From assembly GCF_013377755.1 (NCBI RefSeq), contig NZ_JABXWR010000001.1:631104-695103 (forward strand): DNA of 64,000 nucleotides, given 5' to 3'. Shown here piece by piece: positions 12,066 to 55,667 of the stretch. The position numbers and the translations under genes were made by a program. The stretch comes from Methanofollis tationis (lineage in GTDB: Archaea; Halobacteriota; Methanomicrobia; Methanomicrobiales; Methanofollaceae). How positions within the stretch are numbered: the stretch's first letter is position 1; every line of letters starts with the position of its first letter. A model generated the notes under the pieces. It ran no database searches, was not told where the DNA came from, and saw nothing but the letters and a program-made list of their open reading frames with translations.

Positions 12066-12662
12066 GGCCTTCCCGGTCCAATACCCGCGGGGATGCGGGG
12101 CGGGCGGTTGATCTGCATGCTGGTGGCGGGGGGCCTGCCGCCCCCCGGTCCCCCCGCAAAATACGATTGGTGCGGAGATGGCAGACCTCCTCCCCTGGAC
12201 TTCGCCCTTGCCTTCCCGGCCCAATCGCACGCGGGGGTCCGGGGGCAGAGCCCCCGGCGGGCAGCGTGGGGAAGGCAGTCGATCGGTACGCTGTGTTCGG
12301 GAAGAGGATCGGCATGCCGTTGGCGGGGGCCTGCCGCCCCCCGGACCCCCCGCAAAATACGATTGGTGCGGAGATGGCAGACCTCCTCCCCTGGACTTCG
12401 CCCTTGCCTTCCCGGCCCAATCGCACGCGGGGGTCCGGGGGCAGAGCCCCCGGCGGACAGCGTGGGGAAGGCAGTCGATCGGTACGCTGTGTTCGGGAAG
12501 AGGATCGGCATGCCGTTGGCGGGGGGCCTGCCGCCCCCCGGACCCCCCGCCGATTGCGATTGAGGGGATGATGGATGTTCGCCTCTCCGGTCCGACCGTT
12601 CCCTCAGGTCCTGGGCAATCGTGTGCGGGGGTCCGGGGGTAAGAGCCCCCGGCCAAGAATGC
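12066..12662. repeat. GC-rich tandem repeat, unit 196 bp
   Basis: Two nearly identical 196-bp units lie in direct tandem, with partial units at both ends. For example ATACGATTGGTGCGGAGATG begins at 12161 and again at 12357, and GGCATGCCGT at 12311 and 12507. Each unit holds strong hairpins such as CCGGGGGCAGAGCCCCCGG and GGGGGGCCTGCCGCCCCCC. The same sequence modules occur inverted near 31.1-31.3 and 55.1-55.5 kb. Reading frames through it are low-complexity and are not believed. The preceding 160 bases (11907-12065) hold no recognised feature. Confidence 0.9.
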
Positions 12663-12688: not shown

Positions 12689-13354
12689 TCAGGCACCGGT
12701 CACATACCGCTCCGGCACCAGGATCTGGAGGGTATAGGACTTGATCGACCTGGTGTTGATCACGAGCCAGTAGTCGCGGCCACCCTCAAAGAACCGCTCC
12801 TTCCATGCCTCCCTCCGAATCGCCGGATCGAAGTCCTTACCCGTAATAAAGTCAGAGTCTCTCTTCGTGACGATCCTGACGAAGCGGTTCGGGTCGGTCG
12901 CATCCATCACCTGGATGTTCAGAAGGGAAAACTCGGTGTTGTAGGCCTCGGCGTCGTACGCGAGCTCCCAGTAGGGGTACGGGATGGAGATAATGTCGGT
13001 CGTCCCGCTCCCCGACCCCCTGACGACGGCATAGACCGCCATCGCCTTTGAGGGGGCGCCCTCAGACGGCGGCACCGACATCGCCGCCTGCGGCGCCGAA
13101 GCATTGATCCCGTACGAAGCCGGGTCCACGAAACCGACCGTCTTCGCCCGCCCGTCCCAGGCCGGGACGGGTTCGGGTGTCGGGACGGCTGTCGTCCTCG
13201 GAATGGCCGTGGTCGAGAACGTCGTCGCCGCAGCCCCCTCCTCCGGCGCCAGGAACAGGACGGGCCCGTCAGAGAGCGCCGGTTTTACGACGAGCGCCAC
13301 GACGACCACGATCGCCACGGCGGCGATCAGGCTGATCAGGTCTTCCCTCTCCAT
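12689..13354 (-). CDS. Membrane-anchored extracellular protein, paralogue of the gene at 29843
   Basis: A 221-residue protein of unknown function. It has one N-terminal membrane helix (LISLIAAVAIVVVVALVV), a Thr/Pro-rich linker (TTAIPRTTAVPTPEPVP) and a predicted outside domain of about 150 residues. Motifs shared with the protein encoded at 29843-30472 are a G...TD..S..YP.W.L block (TDIISIPYPYWEL here), a middle strand with an M-D/E-x-T turn, and G[RK][DE][YF].LVI near the end (GGRDYWLVINT here). The two paralogues flank the archaellum-chemotaxis island, and this one is divergent from archaellin. A surface or envelope role is inferred from topology alone. Confidence 0.65.
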   Translation of the reverse strand: MEREDLISLIAAVAIVVVVALVVKPALSDGPVLFLAPEEGAAATTFSTTAIPRTTAVPTPEPVPAWDGRAKTVGFVDPASYGINASAPQAAMSVPPSEGAPSKAMAVYAVVRGSGSGTTDIISIPYPYWELAYDAEAYNTEFSLLNIQVMDATDPNRFVRIVTKRDSDFITGKDFDPAIRREAWKERFFEGGRDYWLVINTRSIKSYTLQILVPERYVTGA

Positions 13355-22067: not shown

Positions 22068-23074
22068 GGCTTCGTTGAAACCCTCCAGTAGTCCGGTTCC
22101 GCGCTAAAGCAAAGATCTATAAGAATCGTTGCTCCTTGAGTTAATGACCAAACCAACACCAAGGAGCAGAGATAGTGTCAACGAACCGGTATATCAACCT
22201 TATCGAAAGCATCTGTTCAGTACTCCGATCTTCCCATCTGCCTCTTTATTCCTGCAAATACTCCCGGAAAACGTATACTCAGCATCAACTCATGGCTATT
22301 CTTCTCTTTCGTGAAGCTCTTCGCACTGACTATCGCTCGACCGTTGAGCTCATCGATCTAATGGACGGAGTCAAAGAGATCCTTCAGCTTGATCAGGTCC
22401 CCCACTACTCAACCATCCATAAGTTCATGGCCCGTATTCCTTCTGTTTTCTTCTCGATACTCCTGAATAAAACTCTGAAACTCTTCTATTCCTGGGGTGA
22501 AATCATTCCAATAACCGCCATCGATTCTTCAGGTTTCACCAGTTCGTACGCCAGCCATTATTATTCCTGGCGGACTGGAAAGATGCGGAAAAACTTCGTG
22601 AAAACCACGATAGCGATAGATACGCTCAAGCAAGTGATCATCTCCTTCAAGATCTCGCTCAAACCGGTACATGATGTAAAACATGCAGAGCCACTTCTCA
22701 GGCAGTGCCGGAGGACGAGAAAGACCGGGTGCTATGTGATGGATAAAGGATACGATTCAGAGGAACTTCATCGCCAGATCCGGGAAGAGATTGGGGCTGA
22801 TTCAGTGATACCAGTCAGAACATGGAACGGAAAGATCTATTCGGGCAAATATAGGCAAGAGATGTATGCTTCCTTTGACGCTGAACGGTATGCTGAGAGA
22901 AACAAGGTCGAAACAGCGTTCTCGGTCATGAAAAGAAAGTTTGGAGAGGGGCTGAAAGCACGAATATTTTGGTACCAGATCAAGGAGATCAAGATCAAAC
23001 TGATACTCCATAACCTCACGAAGGCGATTCAGGCGATCGTGGTTCTTGTAGTGGTCGAGGAATTCAACAAAGCC
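22068..23074 (+). mobile_element. IS5-type insertion sequence (ISH1-like) with 8-bp target duplication
   Basis: A complete insertion sequence of about 1.0 kb. The left end reads GGCTTCGTTGAA (22068-22079) and the right end, inverted, GGCTTTGTTGAA (23063-23074), matching at 11 of 12 bases. It is flanked by the perfect direct repeat AAATTTAT at 22060-22067 and 23075-23082. An 8-bp duplication is known for the ISH1 subgroup of IS5. It lies directly after the cheF stop codon, in operon orientation, and separates cheF from cheY. Its base composition is more AT-rich than that of its neighbours. Confidence 0.9.
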
Positions 23075-23095
23075 AAATTTATAAAATTTCGATGA
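22175..23095 (+). CDS. IS5-family transposase
   Basis: A 306-residue DDE transposase. The first catalytic Asp is in ITAIDSSGF, the second in [12 protein letters not shown], and the Glu is in the Y-(2)-R-(3)-E-(6)-K-type signature [14 protein letters not shown]. The N-terminal helix-turn-helix region ([14 protein letters not shown]) is present. No frameshift is seen, so the element may still be mobile. The stop codon (23093-23095) lies beyond the right inverted repeat: the last codons come from the repeat, the target duplication and host DNA. Confidence 0.9.
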
Positions 23096-23515: not shown

Positions 23516-24541
23516 ATGATCAGGGTACTCATCGTCGATGATTCAATATTTATTCGCACAATACTGAAAGATTTCCTCAGCAAATCTCCTGACATCGAGG
23601 TCGTGGGGACGGTGTCCGACGGTGTCGAGGCACTCTCCCTGATCGACGATCTCAAACCCGACGTGATGACGCTCGACATCGAGATGCCCAGGATGACCGG
23701 GATCGATCTGCTCAGGAAGATGCCGGACCTGAGCCACCGCCCGAAAGTGCTGATGCTCAGTTCGCTCACCTCGAAAGACGCCAGCCATACGAGAACGGCC
23801 CTGGCCCTCGGGGCAGACGACTTCATGCTCAAACCGCAGGAGATCTTCAGGGTGCGCGGGATCCAGGAAGAACTCGTCGCAAAGATCCTGCATCTCATCC
23901 ATATCGGCCCGGCGGTCAAACAGGACGTCTCCTCGCGCGGTCTTGCCCGCAGGCTGCTGATCTTCGGCTCCTCGGCCGGGGGGCTCCAGCAGCTCGACCT
24001 CATCCTCTCGACAATCTCCCCTGACCTGGACGCCGCCGTCGTCATCACCCAGCATATGCCCGAGGGGTTCACCGCGGCCCTCGCCGATCGGTTCAACCGG
24101 ATCTGTCCGCTCCCGGTAAAGGAGTCTGAGAGCGGGTGCATCCTGAATGCCGGTGAGGTCGTGATCTCCAGGTCCGGCGTCCACTCGATCGTCTCGACAT
24201 TCCTCACGCGGGACGGTCACTCCGGAGGAAAAATCGTCCATTCCACCGCCCCTCCGGTCCACGCCGTCAGGCCGGCGATCGACGTGACCTTCTCGACCGC
24301 GGCAAAGATCTTCGGCGGGCGGACACTTGCGGTCATCCTGAGCGGCATGGGCAACGACTGCGGCGACGGCGCCGCAGCCGTCAAAGCGGCAGGAGGCCAG
24401 GTGTTTGCATGCAGCGAGGAGGACTGTCTGGTCTACGGGATGGCGCGCTCCGCAATGAAAAAAAATAGTGTCGACAGGGTCGTTCCTCTCCGGAGGATTC
24501 CCGACGAGGTGCAACGGGCGATCACTGCAATGGAGGGGTAA
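23516..24541 (+). CDS. cheB: Chemotaxis methylesterase CheB
   Basis: A 341-residue protein with a receiver domain (D8-D9, phosphoacceptor D54 in MTLDIEMPRMTG) and a C-terminal methylesterase domain carrying the catalytic Ser (FGSSAGGLQ), His (TQHMPEGF) and Asp (GMGNDCGDG). It removes methyl groups, and deamidates, MCP glutamates/glutamines for adaptation, opposing CheR (encoded at 31684). The ATG at 23516 is 2 bases after cheY. Confidence 0.95.
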   Translation: MIRVLIVDDSIFIRTILKDFLSKSPDIEVVGTVSDGVEALSLIDDLKPDVMTLDIEMPRMTGIDLLRKMPDLSHRPKVLMLSSLTSKDASHTRTALALGADDFMLKPQEIFRVRGIQEELVAKILHLIHIGPAVKQDVSSRGLARRLLIFGSSAGGLQQLDLILSTISPDLDAAVVITQHMPEGFTAALADRFNRICPLPVKESESGCILNAGEVVISRSGVHSIVSTFLTRDGHSGGKIVHSTAPPVHAVRPAIDVTFSTAAKIFGGRTLAVILSGMGNDCGDGAAAVKAAGGQVFACSEEDCLVYGMARSAMKKNSVDRVVPLRRIPDEVQRAITAMEG

Positions 24542-24545
24542 CATC

Positions 24546-26447
24546 GTGTCAGATATGGAGGAATACAGGGGTCTGTTTGCCGTCGAGTCGCGGGAGAACA
24601 ACGAGGCGATTGCCCGGGCTCTTCTCACCCTCGAAGGGGGCGAAGACCGTGAAATTGTTGACGAGATCTTCAGGGCCGCTCATACGATAAAAGGCGCCTC
24701 GGCCTCGATGGGGTTCATGAGGCTCGAGCAGCTCTGCCATTCGATGGAAGACGTCTTCGACCTGATCAGGAACGGTGAACTGCGGGCGAACGCCGCTCTC
24801 ACCGATCTGCTGCTGGCCTGCACCGACCAGATCGATGCGATCCTCGATGCCATTGAGGCGGGCAGAAGCGACGACGGGGGGACCATCGAGGAACTCGTCT
24901 CGGCACTGGAAGTCTGGGTCAACGAGACGTCGTCTGAAGACCTGCCGGTCTCGGGCGACCTGCCCTCATCTGAGGACGATGCTCAGGCTCCTGCCGGGGG
25001 CCCCTGCTACCAGGTCCTTGTCACGCTCGTCCCCGACTCATCGATGAAAGATGTCAGGGCGATGATCTCACTCTCGAACCTCGAAGAGATCGGCCGCATC
25101 CTCTCGACAAACCCGGACAAAGACGGGATCGAGAACGGAAAATTCGACCGCACCTTCGAGGTGGTCCTCGAAAGCGCCGCCGGGGCCGATGCGGTCAGGA
25201 TGGCGGCATCAGGCACCGACATCCAGGAGGTCGCCGTCAGGCCCTGGACCGGCGCGGCAGAGAACCGGAAGGCCGAGGGCGCGGTGCCGAAGGTCGAACA
25301 CCATGAAAAGAGCCGGGAGATCAAAAACATCAGGGTCGACATTCACCTCCTCGACCAGATGATGAACCTGGTGGAGGACCTCGTCATCAACCGCGGCCGC
25401 CTGAAGCAGATTGCACAGAAAAATCAGATCAAGGAACTCGATGAAGCCCTCAATATGGTCGGGAGATCGGTCTCGGATCTCCAGAACCTGATGATGCATA
25501 TCAGGATGATCCCCCTCAACCACATCTTCAACAGGTTCCCCCGCGTCGTCAGGGACGTCTCCCAGCACGACAACAAAGAGGTGGAGTTCATCATCGAGGG
25601 GGGCGAGACCGAACTCGACCGGAGCGTCATGGACGGCCTCAACGACCCGCTCCTCCACCTGATCAGGAACGCCGTCGACCACGGGATCGAGCTCCCTGCC
25701 GAGCGAAAAGCGGCGGGAAAACCCGAGAAAGGTGTGCTCCGTCTCTCGGCACGGCGCGACCGGGACAACGTCCTCATCAGGATCGAGGACGACGGCGCCG
25801 GGATCGATTACGGGAAGGTCAGGAAAAAAGCCGTTTCTCGGGGTCTGTACACCGCGGAGGACGCCGACGCCCTCAGCGAGGACGACCTCATCGAGGTGCT
25901 CTTCAACCCGGGCTTCTCGACCGCCGACGCCATCACCGACATCAGCGGCCGCGGCGTCGGGCTGGACGTCGTCAGGTCGGCGATCGAATCCCTGAAAGGC
26001 TCGATCAAGGTCTCGTCGACGCCGGGAAAGGGCACCTGTTTTGAACTCGTCCTGCCCCCCACCATGGCGATCGTCGACGTGATGATGGTCAGGATCAACG
26101 GCAAACGGTGTGCGATCCCGATCAACAACGTGGTCGAGGTCGCCATGATCAGAAGGGACGCCATCCACCGGGTGGGGGCCACCCGGGTGATCCTCCTGAG
26201 GGACGAGGTGCTGCCCCTTTTTACGCTGGACGATATGTTCGGCGGTTCGAACGGTGGCGACGTCCTTGTCGTGCTCCAGAACGGGCATAAGAAGTGCGGT
26301 ATCGTCTCTGATGTGGTCGAGGGCCAGCAGGAGGTTGTGGTCAAACCGCTCAGTTCTCTCATCGGGATCTGTCCGGGTGTGAGCGGCGTCACCATTCCCG
26401 GCGACGGCGAAGTGGTCCCGGTTCTTGATGTAAACACGATGATCTAA
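24546..26447 (+). CDS. cheA: Chemotaxis histidine kinase CheA
   Basis: A 633-residue kinase: HPt domain with phosphorylated H46 (FRAAHTIKGASASMGF), a CheY/CheB-binding region, dimerisation helices (LLDQMMNLVEDLVINRGRL), an HATPase domain (N box HLIRNAVDHGIELP, G1 DDGAGID, G2 SGRGVGLDVV) and a C-terminal CheW-like domain (AIVDVMMVRINGKRCAIPI). GTG at 24546 is taken as the start because GGAGGGG lies 7 bases upstream. An ATG three codons later is the alternative. No separate cheW is in the window. Confidence 0.93.
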   Translation: MSDMEEYRGLFAVESRENNEAIARALLTLEGGEDREIVDEIFRAAHTIKGASASMGFMRLEQLCHSMEDVFDLIRNGELRANAALTDLLLACTDQIDAILDAIEAGRSDDGGTIEELVSALEVWVNETSSEDLPVSGDLPSSEDDAQAPAGGPCYQVLVTLVPDSSMKDVRAMISLSNLEEIGRILSTNPDKDGIENGKFDRTFEVVLESAAGADAVRMAASGTDIQEVAVRPWTGAAENRKAEGAVPKVEHHEKSREIKNIRVDIHLLDQMMNLVEDLVINRGRLKQIAQKNQIKELDEALNMVGRSVSDLQNLMMHIRMIPLNHIFNRFPRVVRDVSQHDNKEVEFIIEGGETELDRSVMDGLNDPLLHLIRNAVDHGIELPAERKAAGKPEKGVLRLSARRDRDNVLIRIEDDGAGIDYGKVRKKAVSRGLYTAEDADALSEDDLIEVLFNPGFSTADAITDISGRGVGLDVVRSAIESLKGSIKVSSTPGKGTCFELVLPPTMAIVDVMMVRINGKRCAIPINNVVEVAMIRRDAIHRVGATRVILLRDEVLPLFTLDDMFGGSNGGDVLVVLQNGHKKCGIVSDVVEGQQEVVVKPLSSLIGICPGVSGVTIPGDGEVVPVLDVNTMI

Positions 26448-26456
26448 GGAGTTCTC

Positions 26457-27074
26457 ATGAAATTAACAGATATCCAGTCGGACGCACTTGGCGAACTCGG
26501 CAATATTGGTGCAGCGCACGCAGCAACGACACTTTCGCAGATGTTGATGACCCAGATCGATATGGACGTCCCGAAAATTTCCATCATCGATATCGCCGAA
26601 TGCTACCGCTGTATCGGGGAAGAGCGTGCTGCGCTTGTCGCTTTCGGCATCAAGGGTGAAGTAAAGGGCGAGGGTTTTATCGTCCTGTATATGCCGCAGA
26701 CCTCGGCGATACGCCTCACCAACACGATGCTCGGCATGACCGAGATGGACCGCGAGATGAACGAGATGGACCAGAGCGCCATCATCGAGATCGGCAACAT
26801 CATGGTCTCCGCCTTCCTCGACGCCACCGCGGAACTCCTCGGTATCGTGATGCTCCCCTCCCCGCCATCCCTCTGCATGGACATGGCCCATGCCGGGATC
26901 GAGGCCGTCATTGCCGAAGTGGCGGTCAAGACCAACGATGTCGTCATCTTTAAAACGAACCTGACCAGCGACCAGTACTCGATCGACGGGGCGCTCCTGA
27001 TGTTCCCTGACCCTGACCTGATCTCTGAAATCCTCGGCCTCCTTGACGCACTCACGGCACAGACCCCGGTTTGA
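26457..27074 (+). CDS. cheC: CheY-P phosphatase CheC
   Basis: A 205-residue protein with the two CheC phosphatase motifs: an N-terminal LGELGNIGAAHAATTLSQ and a middle IIEIGNIMVSAFLDAT, both keeping the E-(2)-N signature that hydrolyses phospho-CheY. CheC binds CheD, and in archaea both also contact CheF. It begins 9 bases after cheA. Confidence 0.93.
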   Translation: MKLTDIQSDALGELGNIGAAHAATTLSQMLMTQIDMDVPKISIIDIAECYRCIGEERAALVAFGIKGEVKGEGFIVLYMPQTSAIRLTNTMLGMTEMDREMNEMDQSAIIEIGNIMVSAFLDATAELLGIVMLPSPPSLCMDMAHAGIEAVIAEVAVKTNDVVIFKTNLTSDQYSIDGALLMFPDPDLISEILGLLDALTAQTPV

Positions 27075-27092: not shown

Positions 27093-27584
27093 ATGGTGGA
27101 GTTTCGACCGCTTGGCATGAATGCACGCTTTATCGGGATCGGCGACTACTATGTGGGCCGCGACCCGATGACGACGATCGGGCTTGGATCGTGTGTGGCG
27201 CTGGTCCTCCACAACGAGCGCTTCGCCGTCGGAGCGATGGCCCATATCATGCTCCCTGAGAGCAAAGGCCAGGTCGAATGCCCGGGAAAATTCGCCGATA
27301 CCGCCGTGACCGCGCTTCTTCACGAGATCGGAAACTACGGATCGCGCAACGGCAGTCTCTGTGCGGTACTGATCGGCGGTGCGAATATGTTCTGGTTCAA
27401 CGACAACCACTTAAACATCGGCGACCGGAACATCGATGCGGTCCGCCGGAGACTGAGAGAAGAGCGGGTCTCGATACGGGCGGAGGACGTCGGCGGGAGA
27501 ATCGGGCGCTCGGTCGTGTACGACCCGCAGAACCACGGCAAGATTACGATACGGCGGGCTGACGGGTCATGCACCGATCTCTGA
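27093..27584 (+). CDS. cheD: Receptor glutamine deamidase CheD
   Basis: A 163-residue CheD protein with the catalytic Cys in GLGSCVALVLH, the His in GAMAHIMLPES and the downstream IGGANMFWF and NIGDRN blocks. CheD deamidates MCP glutamines and is regulated by CheC. It follows cheC by 18 bases and overlaps the next gene by 16. Confidence 0.93.
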   Translation: MVEFRPLGMNARFIGIGDYYVGRDPMTTIGLGSCVALVLHNERFAVGAMAHIMLPESKGQVECPGKFADTAVTALLHEIGNYGSRNGSLCAVLIGGANMFWFNDNHLNIGDRNIDAVRRRLREERVSIRAEDVGGRIGRSVVYDPQNHGKITIRRADGSCTDL

Positions 27585-28593: not shown

Positions 28594-29769
28594 CTACTCG
28601 CATTTCATGATCTGCCTGACGTAATCGTCGACAGAATCGAGGAGGGCTTTTTTTGCTTTGTTTGCCCGGGTTTTCTCCCCAGAATAGATGTCGTGGGCGA
28701 GATACCTGAGAAGGTCCAGGTAGTATGCACTTGAGGGATATTTTCGTTTCATGTCCTCAAGCCTCGCGAACGATTCGCTTTCGAGCCCTGAGAAGAGGGA
28801 GAACGAGAGATCAAGGAGACCGAGAACATAGGGCGGCATCCCGTTCTCCGCCGCCTGCTTTCTGAAGGTGTGATAGCCGGATTTTGTCACCGTTCTAAAG
28901 GAGAGGAGCATCCCATAGTAGAACGGTTCGACGCTCTGGGGGTACTGCTGGATCATCAGTTTCACAACCCCGGCCGCGTCGGTTCCGTTCCCTTCCTCAA
29001 GGGCGAAAAGAAACGCCTCCCTGAGAAAGACCATCTCATTGTAGAAGCGGTTCTGGGCCACGTCCAGGATCTGCCGTCTCATCTCGCGATTTTTGTCGGC
29101 CTTCGCCTTCATCAACCCGATGCGTATGAATGCAGGCTGGCTTGGAAACCACTCGATGGCGCACGAGATCATCAGCCAGAATGTCCGGTCCAGCCAGGGT
29201 TCTGCCTTGAAGGGGAGGTTCTGCGCAACGCCGGCGTGGATGCGGGCGAGTTCGATCATCTGCTCTCGCGCCCGCAGCTCCATATCGCTTGGCGCCTTCA
29301 TGTCCCTGAACTTTGCAACCTCATTGAGCGAGAGGGCATAATAGCAATAGGCAAGACCTGTATGGAGCAGGATATCCTCAGAGCGATATTTTTTCAGATA
29401 GGGGATCGCATGGACGAAGTCGCCCGACTTCATCATTTTCAGCCCCACGCTGATCTCAAGGCCCCTCTGCGGATTCTTCCCTTTTTTCAGTCGCAACGCG
29501 CTCTCGATTACTTTTTCCGTGTATCCTGACTCTCTGGTTCTCGTCGCGGCGTCGAGGAGTTTGAAGGTGATGGCGTCGATAAAGGCATCATAGGACTCCA
29601 CATCGAGATCAGGAAACGAAGAATCGAGCGCCGAGATGACATGGCCGTAAAAAACAGGTAATTTATCCTCTATTTTGGAGATATTGCTCTCGATGTACCC
29701 GGAGAAATCCAGCCTCATTTGATCGAGCTTCTCGTACTGGATCGCATCGGTCAGCATCTCGCCGCGCAT
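28594..29769 (-). CDS. Unknown helical-repeat (TPR-like) cytoplasmic protein
   Basis: A 391-residue, all-helical protein without signal or membrane segments. TPR-like stretches are visible (LHTGLAYCYYALSLNEVAKF, IRIGLMKAKADKN, YYGMLLSFRTVTKSGYHTF, YLDLLRYLAHDIYSGEKTRA), but no strict repeat could be aligned by eye. It is convergent with the propeller gene, 17 bases apart, and divergent from nothing close. A TATA-like ATTATTAAAAT precedes the start by about 35 bases. An internal Met four codons later is an alternative start. Function unknown; a scaffolding role next to chemotaxis genes is only suggested by place. Confidence 0.65.
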   Translation of the reverse strand: MRGEMLTDAIQYEKLDQMRLDFSGYIESNISKIEDKLPVFYGHVISALDSSFPDLDVESYDAFIDAITFKLLDAATRTRESGYTEKVIESALRLKKGKNPQRGLEISVGLKMMKSGDFVHAIPYLKKYRSEDILLHTGLAYCYYALSLNEVAKFRDMKAPSDMELRAREQMIELARIHAGVAQNLPFKAEPWLDRTFWLMISCAIEWFPSQPAFIRIGLMKAKADKNREMRRQILDVAQNRFYNEMVFLREAFLFALEEGNGTDAAGVVKLMIQQYPQSVEPFYYGMLLSFRTVTKSGYHTFRKQAAENGMPPYVLGLLDLSFSLFSGLESESFARLEDMKRKYPSSAYYLDLLRYLAHDIYSGEKTRANKAKKALLDSVDDYVRQIMKCE

Positions 29770-29842: not shown

Positions 29843-30472
29843 CTACGCCTTTTTCACGACCACGCCGGGATAGGAGTCCAGATACTCGTCTCTGGTTTCA
29901 AGGTCGACCCTGAACGCCGCGTAACTGCTCTGAATGACCAGGTAAAATTCTTTTCCCGAGATTTCCTGATTTTTAATGACCTTTCCCGGCCCTTTCAGTT
30001 CGGCACCGTCAATGATGATGCCGGTCTCTTTTTCGATGAGCATCATTTTGAATCGTGCATTCTCGGGCTGCTCCCCCTTGCTGACGCTACAGTTGAGCCT
30101 CCAGACCGGATAGGAGACCGAGAAGGGATCGGTCACACCGCCGTATGATCCTTCAAGATAGGCAAAAGAGGTAATGTTCGCTCCTCTCCACGGCGGATCC
30201 GACATCCCGAATGTGGTGAGGTTGTCCGGGATGATATAGGTCTGATATTTTATGACCGGCTGGTGTGCATATTCGATCCTGACGGGTACGAACGTTTTGA
30301 TCGGTGCCGGCGCTGCAGGGGTGGTCACGGGCAGCGTCGTCATCGGCGTCGGCGCTGTCTCGCCCGCGGCGGCGTCGGGAGCGGCCCATGGCGGATGCAC
30401 GATGCAGACCATGATCACGACGATCCCGATCGCCGCCGCAAAGCTCAGGATATCGCCTGAGTTCATGATCAC
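29843..30472 (-). CDS. Membrane-anchored extracellular protein, paralogue of the gene at 12689
   Basis: A 209-residue protein: N-terminal helix (ILSFAAAIGIVVIMVCIV), Thr/Pro/Ala linker (TPMTTLPVTTPAAPAPIK) and an outside domain with VTDPFSVSYPVWRL, MMLIEKETGIII and GKEFYLVIQS, matching the gene at 12689-13354 in order and spacing. A TATA-like GAGTATATC lies about 20-25 bases upstream of the start, fitting leaderless transcription. The pair brackets the archaellum and chemotaxis genes. Confidence 0.65.
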   Translation of the reverse strand: MIMNSGDILSFAAAIGIVVIMVCIVHPPWAAPDAAAGETAPTPMTTLPVTTPAAPAPIKTFVPVRIEYAHQPVIKYQTYIIPDNLTTFGMSDPPWRGANITSFAYLEGSYGGVTDPFSVSYPVWRLNCSVSKGEQPENARFKMMLIEKETGIIIDGAELKGPGKVIKNQEISGKEFYLVIQSSYAAFRVDLETRDEYLDSYPGVVVKKA

Positions 30473-30992: not shown

Positions 30993-31683
30993 CGCCGGGC
31001 ATGCAAACGCCCGGAGCGCGGTTTTACTCATCATTTTTCAGGGGAAAAATATGGCCCTTCCTCCTTTTATGTGGGTTGGCCCCCTCCTGATCCCCTCCCT
31101 GCGGTCAGTCCCCGTCATGCTATGTTCAGGTTCTCTCCACATCCGGGTGTACCGGTCCACCGCCTTCCCCACGCAGCCCGCCGGGGGTTTCACCCCATTG
31201 GAGCGGATTGGCCCGGGAAGGCACCCACGCGATCCCGAAGTGAGTGGTCCTTCTCTCTCCCTATCGCAGGTCCGCGGGGCAGCTGGCCCCCCGGCATCGG
31301 CACGCCGATCAACCCGTCGACATGTTCGTCCTGAGATACTCCCCGCCTCTAAAATCTCGGTCTTTCGTGTATGATTCCCCGGGTCGCCTGAGGGGAGTCA
31401 GATGAAGGTGTCGTGGCTACCCACACAAAGGAGCGAAGAGCCGAAACTCCTGAAACATTCCCTTTAAATTCGCAGCTTCGCGTGAGACTCTCCTGGAAAA
31501 TCACGCAAAGCCGCGAAGAAAAAGAAGCCCTGATCCGATTCCTATACCTTCGCAGCCTACCCGGTGAGACCATCCCCTTCATCCCGATCCGCCGAGCGGA
31601 GATCAGACGACGTTGTCAAGAGACACCCGCACAGAAGAGCGAAGAGCCAAAAATAGTTTGTGCGAGGTGCGCCGGCACCGGGA
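30993..31683. repeat. Dispersed repeat region, two modules
   Basis: No gene is recognised here. From about 31060 to 31345 runs a copy of the GC-rich repeat that also occupies 55.08-55.53 kb (shared CCCTCCCTGC, GGTCAGTCCCCG, GCCTTCCCCACGC, CACGCCGATCAACCCGTCGA). It is followed at 31347-31445 by AAATCTCGGTCTTTCGTGTA and GTGGCTACCCACACAAAGGA, again as at 55.55-55.65 kb. A second module (31469-31550; CTTCGCGTGAGACTCTCC, AAGCCGCGAAGAAAAAGAAG) resembles 1968-2055, and a short echo of the first tail (GACACCCGCACAGAAGAGC) lies at 31620-31645. Confidence 0.75.
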
Positions 31684-32481
31684 TTATTGCGCCGGGCTTT
31701 TCCCGTAGATCTTCTGCATCGAATCTACCGGGGTGAACAGCCCCTCGCTCTCCCGCAGGAGGTACTCCGTCTTCCCCATCACATAATAGCCCCCCTGCGA
31801 AAGAGCCTGATAAAACAGAGTTGCAAGATCTTTCTTCTGTTTTTCATTGAAATATATGGTCACGTTCCGACACGAGACCAGATCCAGAAAACGCGCTGCA
31901 GGAACGCCCGACATCAGGTCATGGTGGGAAAAGCGGACGATCTCCTTCAGGGTCGGCTTCACCTCGTACTTCCCGTCCTCCCTGAGCGTAAAGTACCTGC
32001 GGATCTGCTGCTCGGTGAGATTTTTAAGGGCTTTTATATCGTAGACCCCCTCCCGTGCCCTGTCCAGGACGACCCTGTCGATATCGGTGGCATAGATCGT
32101 GGCGTCGACAGGGTTCATGCGCATATATTCCCTGACCAGGATCGCATAGGAATAGGCCTCCTCGCCGGTGGCGCACCCTGCACACCAGATCCGTATCTTC
32201 TTCCTCGTCCCCAGAACGTCCGGGAGGACCTTCTGGCCGACGGCCCTGAAGACGTCGGGGTCCCGGAAAAACTCCGTCACGTTGATCGTGAGTGCGTTTT
32301 TGAGGCTCTCTTTCTCCCCATTATCCAGAATGAGGAAGCGGTGGTAGTCCTCAAACGTCTCCTTGCCCGAGATACGCATGCGGGAGAGGACGCGGCGCTT
32401 GATGTAGTCCTCCTTATACTGGGACGTCCTGATCCCGACAACCCGTTCGATCGTCCTGTTCAACGAGGTGAAATCGTCCAT
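31684..32481 (-). CDS. cheR: Chemotaxis methyltransferase CheR
   Basis: A 265-residue protein with the N-terminal helical CheR domain (SQYKEDYIKRRVLSRM) and the SAM-binding core IWCAGCATGEEAYSYAIL, ATDID, and VSCRNVTIYFNEKQK. It methylates MCP glutamates using SAM. It follows the MCP gene by 1 base and is the last gene of the parA-MCP-cheR operon on the minus strand. Confidence 0.95.
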   Translation of the reverse strand: MDDFTSLNRTIERVVGIRTSQYKEDYIKRRVLSRMRISGKETFEDYHRFLILDNGEKESLKNALTINVTEFFRDPDVFRAVGQKVLPDVLGTRKKIRIWCAGCATGEEAYSYAILVREYMRMNPVDATIYATDIDRVVLDRAREGVYDIKALKNLTEQQIRRYFTLREDGKYEVKPTLKEIVRFSHHDLMSGVPAARFLDLVSCRNVTIYFNEKQKKDLATLFYQALSQGGYYVMGKTEYLLRESEGLFTPVDSMQKIYGKSPAQ

Positions 32482-32482
32482 A

Positions 32483-34981
32483 TCAGTTTAGTTTAAACAT
32501 GTCCATCTTGCGCTTCAGATCGGCGGAAAGGCTGGCGAGTTCGTGTGCGGCACTCCCGACCTCCTGCGTCGAGGCGCTGACCTCCTCGGCGAGGGCGGCC
32601 ATGTCTTCGACCCGCGCAAGGTTCTCCTTCGTCCTGGAGGCTGCCTGTTCCATCATATCCATCACATTATTGGTCGCATGTGCCTGGTCCTCGGTGGCCC
32701 GCGTGATCTCGGTGATCGCGTTTGCGGCGTCGTTGATATCGGCGCTGATCTTGGTCAGGGCATTGATCGCCTGTTTGACGCTGTCGATCCCCTCCCGGAT
32801 CTCCTTGTGGGAGGAACGCATCGAATCGGCGGTCTTCTCGCTCTCTTTCTGGATCGCCGCGATCAGTTCTTCGATATGCTGGCTTGCCTTCCGTGAATCT
32901 CCTGCAAGGTTCCTGATCTCGCCGGCGACGACGGCGAAGCCCCGCCCGTGTTCGCCCGCACGCGCCGCCTCGATGGCCGCATTCAGGGCGAGCAGATTGG
33001 TCTGGTTCGAGATCTCGTTGATGAGTTTGACGATCTTGGTGATCTCGTGCATCTGGGCGTTCAGGTGCACAATATCCGCCACCGTCTGCTCTGAGATGGT
33101 GCCGACCGACTCCATCTTATTATAGGCAACCTTCCCGATCTCAGCACCTGCAGCACCCTCCTGCGATGAATTGACCGCTTTCTTCATCACTTCCTGTGTC
33201 GTGCTGGCGATCTCCTCGATCGACGCCGAAAGGTCGGAGATCCCTCGTGTCACCGATTCGATGTTGCTGAGAAGGTTGCGGGTCGCCTCGGAGGACTGCT
33301 GGGTTGCAAGAGCGACCTGCTCTGTTGCCTTTCCGATATCGGCGGCTCCTCTGCTGGTCTCCCGCGCATTTTTCTCGACGATTGAGGCCACGCTGTTTAC
33401 CTCCTCGATCGTCTCCTTAAACCTCTGGATAGAACTGTTATAGTCCCTCTTCACCGTTGCAAGCAGGTCGTCTTTTCCGATCCTGGCCTCCTGCGAAAGA
33501 TCGCCCTGCGCCACAATCTCCATCACGGCTCCCAGTTCGGCGGCGTTTTCTTCGAGTTTTTTCCCTCTCGCCTCAACTTCCGCCAGGATACGCTTGATCT
33601 CGTCCTCCTTTTCCCGCCTCTTTGTGATATCGTTATAGACGACAAGGAGGCTCTCCAGATTTCCGTCTTCGGAGATGAACGGGATGCCGTACTGTTCGAG
33701 GATATGGATCCCCGAAGGGAGCTCGACGGTCACCTCTCCGTAGCAGCGTTTTTTCAGCTGGACCGCCTGTTTGAGCCCCTCACCTTTCTGCTCGACGATC
33801 GTGAAGGAGCGTGCGTTCATGCCCACCAGGCGTTCGAGCCTGATCCCTGACATCGAGGTATAGGCCTCGTTTGCAGAGGTGACCGTGAAAGAGGGATCGA
33901 GAAGGAGGATGGGCATCGGGTTCTGTTCCACGATGACCTGGGAGCGGCGCTGGAGCTGCTGGACTGTGTCCATCTCCTCTTTGAGTTCCTCCTCCTTCTT
34001 CCGCTCCTCGGTGATGTCGTTATAGACGACAAGGAGGCTCTCCAGGTTTCCGTCTTCGGAGACGAAGGGGATGCCGTACTGCTCGAGGATGTGGACCCCT
34101 GACGGGAGATCGACGGTCACCTCGCCATAGCAGCGCTTCTTGAGCTGGACCGCCTGCTTGAGCCCCTCACCCCGCTGTTCGAGGATCCTGAAGGACCGAG
34201 CGCTCATGCCCTTCAGACGTTCGAGGGCGATCCCCGACATCGTGGCATAGGCCTCGTTTGAAGAGGTGATGGTGAAATCGGCGTCGAGGAGGAGGATGGG
34301 CATCGGGTTCTGGTCCACGATGGTCTGGGAGCGGCTCTGCAGTTCGCCGATCCTGGCCTGTTCCTCTTTTAACTCCTGCTCTTTTTCCCGCACCTCGGTG
34401 ATGTCGTTGAAGACGAACAGTGCCCGGGTGACTTCCCCGGTCTCGTCAGGCATCGGAATGCCGTACTGCTCGAGGATCTTCTTCGCATTGCCGACGACGA
34501 TCTGGAGCACGCTCCGGGTTTTTCTGCCTTTTGAGAATAAAACCTCTGTTTTGTCCCCTGAGAGCAGTTTGATCTCTGCCTTTCTCCCGGTCCCGGCGAG
34601 GAGGCGTTCACGGGAGTCTCCGATCAGGTCGCAATACGCCTGGTTGAGATCGAGGGTGTTCAGGTCGCTGTCCACCATCACCATCGCCATCGGGTTCTCG
34701 GCAAAGACGATCTGCTGCCCGGCCTGCGCTGCCCGGTGTTCGTGGATCGCCCTCGCGGCACGGTTGACCGCTTCGGCCAGGTCCCTGAGGCCGGCCGGAT
34801 AGATCTCGGGATCGATCCCGGCCGGACTGCCGCCTGCAATGGCGTCCTGCAAAACTGCCGCAATTTCTGCGATCTCCAACTCTCTTCCCGGCACCTCTGC
34901 AGCCTTCTCAAAACCATTCCCGTTCAGTGCCGCAGGGGCGGCGAACAATGCCTTTCTGCCCAGTTTCTCTGTCATCATCAT
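32483..34981 (-). CDS. Cytoplasmic methyl-accepting chemotaxis protein with three PAS domains
   Basis: About 832 residues. No membrane helix is visible. After an N-terminal helical part come three PAS units (each with NPM.ILLLD/MVDSD.....N.AY), of which the second and third are nearly identical and arise from a 387-bp duplication. A HAMP-like connector ([19 protein letters not shown]) and a complete MCP signalling hairpin follow, with the conserved tip region ([35 protein letters not shown]). The protein is thus a soluble receptor sensing an intracellular cue through PAS domains. Three tandem ATG codons (34981, 34978, 34975) follow GAGGGG, so the start is uncertain by up to two residues. parA ends 4 bases upstream. 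Confidence 0.9.
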
Positions 34982-34985
34982 CCCC

Positions 34986-35813
34986 TCATTTCTTCCAGTG
35001 CCCGACGGTCGATGCAATCTTCCTGTAGGCCTGACCGGCCGGACAGTCGGGTGCATAATGAGATATCGGGAGACCCTTGCGCTGTGCTGCCGGAACCTCT
35101 GCAGAGAAGGGCACTGTTTCAACCATCATAAATGACGCCGAGAGGCGCTCATCGATCGCCTCCGGCTCTATCCTCTTTTCCCGCTGAGATAGGAGCCCGA
35201 GAATTGCGTCGATAAGCCCCGCTCTCTGCCCCTGCACAGGGCTTTCCTGGCTCATGATTGCAATCTCTGCCCTGACATCCCCGCCGACGTTCTCGCGGAT
35301 GTCCTGGAAGATGGCGTTCATCGTCTCGATCCCTTCGAGGGCGAAGATGCCCTGGTCAAGGTTTACTATCGTGTGATCCGCCGCCACGAGACCGTTGATC
35401 ACAAACTGACCCATGCTCGGGGGAGTATCTATCAGGACCACATCATACTCAGGAGAGATTTCATCGAGCGCATCTCTCAGAACAGTTGCCCGGCCTTCAG
35501 ACTGGTAGAGATAGGGTTCGGCACCGACAAGGTCCAGGGTGGAGGGCACAAGGTCGATCCCGGATGCCGTCCTGACGACCAGATCCCTGATGGATACTTC
35601 TGGAAACCCTTCGAACCTGCTCATAAAGAGGTCATAGATGCTGGTCTCCAGGCCGGTCGGGCTGACGCCAAGACCCGAGGTTGCATTTGCCTGGGGATCG
35701 CAGTCCACGACCAGGACGCGTTCTCCGGACTTTTGAAGATAGCCTGCAATATTAAGACAGGACGATGTCTTTCCTGTTCCCCCCTTGTGATGGGCAAATG
35801 CAATACGCGTTAT
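34986..35813 (-). CDS. ParA/Soj-like ATPase, apparent ATA start
   Basis: Reading upstream of the first ATG (35708) the frame continues with [15 protein letters not shown], the deviant Walker A motif that ParA proteins need, then [12 protein letters not shown] and [14 protein letters not shown]. The family's usual start, [12 protein letters not shown], aligns with codon ATA at 35813-35811, preceded by AGGGTGAG. No ATG, GTG or TTG is in frame at that place. The 275-residue protein has the switch motif [11 protein letters not shown]. ParA ATPases position DNA or protein clusters. Here it is joined to an MCP and cheR, so receptor-cluster placement rather than chromosome segregation is suggested. 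No parB is nearby. Confidence 0.8.
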
Positions 35814-35967
35814 GGTCTCACCCTGATATGTGAATTTTACATGAAAGATTATAAAGATTTATATTTTTGTTGTTTCCAGAATATCTTTATTTTATTATTG
35901 TGGCTGCATATTAATTGTTCTACAGATATTGCCGGGTGATACTTCTCACTTGAAGATTTCAGTTGGT

Positions 35968-54971: not shown

Positions 54972-55667
54972 AAGTGATATTTTAAAAATGTATCTCTAAA
55001 TGCCTCGATCGCCCTACGGCCCGCACAATGGGTGCGCAGTAGTTAGGCAAAAGATTATAGAGGCTCTTCGCTGTTTCATGTGGGTGATTCCGACATGATC
55101 CCCTCCCTGCAGTCAGTCCCCGGCATGCCGTGTTCAGGTTCTCTCTCCATCCTGGCGTACCGGTCCCCCGCCTTCCCCACGCTGCCCGCCGGGGGCTTTT
55201 GCCCCCGGACCCCCGCGCACGATTGGACCGGGAAGGCGGGAGGCGATGTCCAGAAGAGGAGGTCTGCCGTCCTGCATCAATCGTATTTTGCGGGGGGACC
55301 GGGGGGCAGCAGGCCCCCCGACACCGGCATGCCGATCCTCCTTCCCGAACACAGCGAACCGATCGACCGCCTTCCTGCATCCCGCGCCGGGGGCTCTGCC
55401 CAGCTGAGCGGATTGGACCGGGAAGGCAGCACAAGGAGTCCGAATGGATCACCGCTATCTCTCCCGATCGCAGTTCTGCGGGGCAGCTGGCCCCCCGAAA
55501 CCGGCACGCCGATCAACCCGTCGACATGTTCCTCTTGAGATGCTTCCCGCCTCTAAAAATCGCGGTCTTTCGCGTATGATTTCCCCGGTCATCTGAGGGA
55601 GTCGGATGAAGGTATCATGGCTACCCACACAAAGGAGCGAAGAGCCATTATAGATCCCTGATGTCCT
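54972..55667. repeat. Dispersed repeat region, inverted copies of the 12-kb unit
   Basis: No gene is recognised. From about 55080 to 55530 lies a GC-rich repeat related to the 196-bp unit at 12.1-12.7 kb but in the opposite orientation (GCCCGCCGGGGGCTTTTGCC, ATCGTATTTTGCGGGGGG, GGCATGCCGATCCTCCTTCC) and, at its right end, to 31.1-31.35 kb. It ends with AAATCGCGGTCTTTCGCGTA and TGGCTACCCACACAAAGGAG (55545-55648), shared with 31.35-31.44 kb. CCGGGGGCTTTTGCCCCCGG is a strong hairpin. Confidence 0.85.

Follow-up and report, generated by a model that had tools for sequence, protein, structure and literature searches.

A Soj-type ParA ATPase encoded with a soluble chemoreceptor in Methanofollis tationis: a probable archaeal system for positioning chemosensory arrays

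Why should a ParA-type ATPase be encoded in one operon with a cytoplasmic chemoreceptor and the methyltransferase CheR? This question is raised by a 64,000-nucleotide stretch of the Methanofollis tationis genome (contig NZ_JABXWR010000001.1, positions 631,104 to 695,103; hereafter the window), taken from an assembly of 2.25 Mb that is 99% complete. The original prediction, made from the letters of the window, held that the operon encodes an archaeal system that partitions soluble chemosensory arrays. Conserved synteny, the lack of a detectable ParB and a conserved box on the partner of ParA support that proposal at the level of sequence comparison, and we consider it likely that this is an archaeal chemosensory-array positioning system, a variant of the PpfA/TlpT–ParP kind. 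The strongest support comes from the N-terminal box, which the original prediction did not include. The operon and the parts of its chemoreceptor, a methyl-accepting chemotaxis protein (MCP), are as follows.

34986..35813, minus strand: parA, a Soj-type deviant-Walker ATPase of 275 residues with a predicted ATA start.
32483..34981, minus strand: soluble MCP, 832 residues counted from its first ATG, with the N-terminal box, three PAS domains and an MCP signalling domain.
34937..34975, minus strand: N-terminal box of the MCP, proposed by sequence comparison to be a ParA-binding and ParA-activating peptide.
33594..34280, minus strand: two PAS units, recently duplicated in tandem (300 bases at 84% identity, with a spacing of 387).
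31684..32481, minus strand: cheR methyltransferase, 265 residues, assigned by Pfam.

Coordinates and Pfam matches agree that the three genes form one minus-strand operon. The gap between parA and the MCP gene is 4 bases (34982-34985) and that between the MCP gene and cheR is a single base (32482). Pfam assigned AAA_31 to ParA (2e-45), PAS_4 in three stretches and MCPsignal (9e-44) to the receptor, and CheR to the methyltransferase (2e-53). The receptor had also been said to lack a membrane helix, and hydropathy bears this out: box-bearing MCPs scored at most 1.69 on a 19-residue Kyte–Doolittle scale, compared with 2.73, 2.42 and 2.70 for three membrane-protein controls. Both MCPs of the genome are soluble by hydropathy, and one CheA and one CheW were found; because all receptors found are soluble, an array here would not itself include a membrane anchor. 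The original prediction noted no parB nearby, and no ParB for this ParA was found: the ParB_N family (PF02195) was unmatched in the whole genome and matched in 10 of 14 control genomes. A ParABS partition system was ruled out on this ground. The PAS pair of the receptor, with its 84% identical DNA, is a recent in-frame duplication.

The partner of ParA opens with a box, [K/R]-P-G-R-K-A-L-F, within its first residues. Of 84 distinct parA loci (from Methanomicrobiales, ANME-1 and one more lineage), 81 have a box protein no more than 5 kb downstream, compared with none of 168 control windows, which were taken upstream on the same strand and downstream on the opposite strand; this contrast ignores shared descent and overstates independence, as many of the loci are close relatives. 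ParAs with an identical 120-residue core were counted once, here and in the start-codon counts below, and a broken second ParA in locus L070 was excluded. The three loci without a scored box were L039, in which the box is present with no ATG within 30 residues before it, L063, whose contig ends 2 kb downstream, and L083, a bacterium with the variant AAKKALF. Across 72 Methanomicrobiales boxes the Gly and Arg are invariant, Leu is kept in 71, Phe in 70, Ala in 66 and a Lys or Arg three residues before the Arg in 65, and the linker that follows diverges while the box stays conserved. Six genomes of the window's genus supplied 22 other intact MCPs, all of which lack both the box and a membrane helix (23 rows, with one cut fragment excluded). 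In ten parA-free genomes, a same-strand box DNA pattern within 5 kb upstream was seen, comparing by eye, for none of the 20 MCPs listed.

The archaeal box resembles the ParA-activating N-terminus of ParB, judging from sequence. A nearby ParB-like gene, recognized by pattern, was present in 61 of 69 bacterial loci from the same scan, most with an N-terminus such as MAVQKKYALGRGLDALIS, and bacterial ParB genes adjoining soj show the N-terminus LGRGLDALI, which is comparable to the box. A hydrophobic residue or Pro, the Gly, the Arg and a closing Ala-Leu-Phe are kept, and the box is two residues shorter. As described in passages on Myxococcus ParB, Leu-11, Leu-15, Leu-18 and Ile-19 contact the edge of the ParA dimer and Arg-13 is required for full activation (PMC12462528); a passage on Helicobacter pylori ParB describes use of an LGRG motif with Arg-9 (PMC11229316). 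More generally, ParA/MinD ATPases are described as being activated by short N-termini of positive charge attached to diverse proteins, among them TlpT (PMC7993993). On the ATPase side, the loop after Walker B reads SLGLLT in bacterial Soj and SMGQFV in the archaeal ParA; by residue spacing we take this loop to be the likely equivalent of the ParB pocket residues Leu-150, Leu-152 and Leu-155. With both the partner tag and the pocket loop shifted, tag and pocket would differ from Soj in a lineage-specific way.

Two kinds of protein carry the box. The carrier is a soluble MCP in the window's family, Methanoculleus, family f2, Methanoregula and ANME-1; Methanolinea, Methanospirillum and others have the box on a CheW protein that usually contains PAS domains. 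In seven fetched loci of family f5 a CheW domain closes the box protein, and five of these proteins also have PAS domains. The partner with a C-terminal CheW-like domain was seen in relatives L052-L056, L061 and L062, where the window has an MCP. The carrier could be typed in 44 of 54 rows (29 MCP, 15 CheW). On the ParA tree the carrier changes twice (2-3 times across bootstrap replicates), and well-supported branches alone force one change. Because the box is carried by MCPs in most lineages and by CheW proteins in others, it follows ParA and not the receptor fold. A ParA-docking tag would be expected to show this pattern, with one ATPase accompanied by the same tag on two unrelated array components.

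ParA itself is a Soj-type (type Ib) ATPase. Its deviant Walker A, Walker A' and Walker B motifs are present, and KGGTGKT and D-x-DPQAN are unchanged in all 24 aligned ParA sequences. The AlphaFold model (predicted local distance difference test score 89) gave Soj and ParA as its top PDB matches, with template-modelling scores to the query of 0.72-0.78 and E of about 1e-21; McdA, FleN and MinD ranked below them, and sequence profiles concur. The ATPase domain begins at the first residues, with no N-terminal helix-turn-helix extension. A MinD-like extra C-terminal (membrane-targeting) helix was not found: the model ends four residues past the last helix (258-271), and the alignment contains no long extension. 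The genome holds no second close ParA, the next match being 25% identical.

The linkage extends well beyond the window. Among 150 genomes of the order, 78 contain this ParA (E 1e-30), as do 113 of 232 genomes of the class (profile, 1e-40); loci that could be named include Methanoculleus, Methanoregula, Methanolinea and Methanospirillum. Across 392 genomes of the phylum, the strong matches outside the order were nine genomes of family f10 (about 1e-90), which includes Methanophagales (ANME-1), and one of family f32 (1e-60). On a midpoint-rooted ParA tree, in which the placement of two long rows (L178 and L083) is unsure, Methanomicrobiales and ANME-1 each form one clade, adjacent to each other and separate from 17 bacterial ParAs. 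Nearly all of 39 loci (L033-L071; 3-18 kb of context) have a chemosensory gene immediately after parA and in the same orientation, and in L056 the gene following parA encodes a CheW protein. Further downstream on the same strand, cheR is present in 33 of the 39; it is missing in L042, L047, L062-L064 and L070, with L062-L064 on short contigs. In family f32, parA, a box receptor, cheB, cheA and cheC follow in one run, the last three read by eye from translation. Synteny of parA with chemosensory genes across Methanomicrobiales, which the original prediction had put forward as a check, thus holds in four families of the order. Together with the empty control windows, this led us to reject a chance neighbourhood.

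We infer the following mechanism. ParA–ATP dimers would coat the nucleoid, and cytoplasmic arrays of receptors, CheW and CheA would display the N-terminal box in large numbers. Each box would dock at the edge of the ParA dimer as the ParB N-terminus does, leading to ATP hydrolysis and release, and cycles of capture and release would move, space and partition the arrays, one for each daughter. A carrier of the CheW type would enter the baseplate as ParP does. An AUA, AUU or AUC start would keep ParA scarce relative to the receptor translated from the same mRNA, yielding mostly receptor and little ParA. The box allows a direct test of this scheme: a few point changes in the 7-residue tag should uncouple arrays from ParA. 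That the tag recurs in ANME-1 and sits on two unrelated carriers illustrates a way in which a ParA ATPase may be given its cargo.

Several known systems share parts of this arrangement. In Rhodobacter sphaeroides, as described, the ParA-like ATPase PpfA is encoded beside the cytoplasmic chemoreceptor TlpT in a che operon without parB and acts through the TlpT N-terminus, its proposed activator (PMC3964821, PMC7993993). The window operon similarly includes a cytoplasmic receptor with a positively charged N-terminal extension; unlike PpfA–TlpT, which we know by description, it is archaeal, has a conserved GRKALF box that also occurs on CheW proteins, and has a non-AUG parA start. Several Methanomicrobiales partners combine a presumed ParA-interacting N-terminus with a C-terminal CheW-like domain, as is described for ParP of the Vibrio ParC–ParP system (PMC5706961), but PAS domains usually lie in between, the window partner is the receptor itself and no polar determinant is known. 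The Soj fold and the ParB-like box recall Soj–Spo0J of ParABS (described in PMC12462528 and PMC11229316), in contrast to which no ParB, hence no parS system, was found, the box is two residues shorter and the Walker B loop is SMGQF instead of SLGLL. MinD4 of Haloferax volcanii, a ParA/MinD-family ATPase reported to affect the placement of archaeal chemosensory arrays (PMC11588486), is MinD-type and polar, whereas the ATPase of the window is of the Soj type and linked to soluble receptors.

The text of PMC2829493, as far as its passages go, counts PpfA homologues in che operons without ParB in 77 of 206 species across bacterial and archaeal genomes and names Methanoregula boonei, so the co-occurrence of parA and che genes may already be counted there for methanogens. 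In the open-licence literature, judged by listings and passages, we found no description of the archaeal system, the box or the parA start codon, and listings for Methanomicrobiales, ParA and chemotaxis together gave nothing on point. Cytoplasmic arrays have been observed in Methanoregula formicica (PMC7534058, citing Briegel 2015). A genus with such arrays also has this system, and we found no open-licence paper naming what places them.

Several observations weigh against array positioning by this ParA. At the cut-off used, 72 of the 150 genomes of the order lack the gene, and some parA-free genomes carry MCPs. In Methanoregula (g12) and L054 it is a later gene, not the first MCP downstream of parA, that carries the box, and the search pattern detected none in the cyanobacterial relatives L082 and L085. 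The likeness to ParB is inexact, as the ALF of the box stands two residues closer to the Arg; neither the box peptide nor a real ParB N-terminus matched anything in a sequence search of the PDB. Finally, the archaeal ParA family has not kept the basic residues found in PRNVRLSEAP, a C-terminal segment of Soj. Because this segment is not conserved, DNA binding by ParA, which we infer from the fold, would have to rely on other residues or may be absent.

The last point bears on an alternative in which the ATPase would anchor arrays at a pole or through the membrane, like Vibrio ParC or Haloferax MinD4, and would not be a nucleoid-based partitioner. MinD4 is reported to place chemosensory arrays and archaella at the poles (PMC11588486), and the CheW-type carriers in relatives have a ParP-like look. 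Set against this, Soj and ParA stand far above MinD in both fold and profile searches, no further helix follows the last Soj-type helix in the model, and the receptors here are soluble. We therefore regard a polar anchor as unlikely; the Soj-like fold and the model's C-terminal end favour the nucleoid over the pole. ParA might instead act mainly on the assembly or number of arrays, as FleN/FlhG does for flagella, with positioning secondary. Clusters are reported to disperse when Halothiobacillus loses its ParC/PpfA homologue (PMC10241942), and sharing an operon with the receptor and cheR would suit such a role, but the N-terminal box is the type of element that drives ParA release cycles and the fold matches FleN less well than Soj, making this quite unlikely. 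That a chromosome or plasmid partition ParA merely adjoins chemotaxis genes is highly improbable: its sequence is ParA/Soj-like, but ParB_N is missing from the genome, the box and chemosensory linkage are conserved in nearly all loci, and MCPs occur in all 33 parA-positive genomes among 48 examined.

The start of parA, which may bear on ParA dosage, has the following parts.

35811..35813, minus strand: predicted non-canonical parA start codon, ATA.
35818..35822, minus strand: Shine–Dalgarno-like GGTGA, 4 bases ahead of the ATA.
35849..35863, minus strand: possible archaeal TATA box, A+T-rich tataaatctttataa, picked out from the sequence by eye.

The original prediction ended parA at 35813. A gene is indeed present there, but the codon is ATA and no ATG, GTG or TTG stands in frame ahead of Walker A; a standard open reading frame finder shortens the gene to 35708. 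At the aligned start position of 73 distinct Methanomicrobiales parA genes, ATT occurs in 40, ATC in 16, ATA in 9, ATG in 7 and ACG in 1, so that 65 have ATT, ATC or ATA, mostly after a Shine–Dalgarno site. This count left out L178, L082, L083 and ANME-1. In ANME-1, parA starts with ATG. An exact-word scan gave no Shine–Dalgarno match for parA of Methanospirillum (L081, L184, L185) and a few others. The state changes between AUH (AUU, AUC or AUA) and ATG about 5 times on the ParA tree. Predicted Shine–Dalgarno pairing is weaker in the ATG-start genes (mean -6.5 versus -9.1 kcal/mol; 7 versus 65 genes; p 0.0014, descent ignored), which would fit selection for low ParA output. Sequencing error was rejected as the source of the ATA, since the assemblies of two close relatives share it at the same position and ATT, ATC or ATA stands at the homologous place elsewhere. 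So was a general shortage of ATG starts at these loci: cheR has ATG near its aligned start in 32 of 33 cases and box proteins have ATG in 69 of 72. The box receptor of L039, which lacks an ATG before its box, may also use a non-canonical start.

Translation might instead begin at an upstream canonical codon, such as the in-frame GTG three codons before the ATT, ATC or ATA in Methanoculleus. An in-frame GTG stands at that place in 26 genes, GTG with TTG in one and TTG in one, and for many such genes the exact-word scan gave GAGG 10 bases before the ATT or ATC. Against this, 31 of the 73 genes have no in-frame ATG, GTG or TTG before Walker A at all. The Methanoculleus GTG overlaps GGGGTG, which in L024 and L067 is out of frame at nearly the same distance to ATT and there can only be part of a Shine–Dalgarno site. 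We find an upstream start improbable. We tentatively propose, with slightly more doubt than belief, that the conserved AUU, AUC or AUA start after a Shine–Dalgarno site is a dosage device holding ParA below the number of boxes, and that in archaea the box has switched between receptor and CheW carriers as a portable tag for ParA docking. Archaeal aIF1 is described as disfavouring non-AUG codons (PMC6237735), and no case of AUU or AUA starts in archaea was found in open-licence literature judged by title and abstract. If a whole archaeal order does retain a start outside AUG, GUG and UUG, it would offer a natural setting in which to examine how aIF1 controls start codons.

An Omnitrophica genome encodes a ParA 39% identical, followed by a long chemoreceptor beginning MAKPIRQAAKKALFGES, a possible relative by sequence. 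In a cyanobacterial metagenome-assembled genome (L082, 6745-8576), a ParA relative (40%) is followed directly by a cheR-like gene.

Other chemosensory genes of the window lie on the opposite strand.

23516..24541, plus strand: cheB, assigned by Pfam.
24558..26447, plus strand: cheA, with Hpt, P2, dimerisation, ATPase and CheW-like domains; the sole CheA found in the genome.
26457..27074, plus strand: cheC, assigned by Pfam.
27093..27584, plus strand: cheD, assigned by Pfam.

A DDE transposase gene (22175-23095, plus strand; Pfam DDE_Tnp_1) lies between archaellum genes and cheB. Between cheD and cheR, a gene at 28594-29769 (minus strand) encodes a 391-residue protein with no Pfam match that is conserved in the genus and on one Methanoregula-type contig, L063. 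The protein encoded at 29843-30472 (minus strand), also without a Pfam match, adjoins cheR again in 27 of the 39 parA loci and, being recurrent there, may belong to the motility system; it is related to the protein at 12689-13354 (minus strand; 26% identity over 116 residues, E 1e-6), both being exported or membrane-anchored. G+C-rich intergenic repeats occur at 12101-12588, 31254-31354 and 55458-55558; a 196-base unit is repeated in tandem near 12.1-12.6 kb, and a separate 101-base element has two copies (90%), one of which adjoins cheR.

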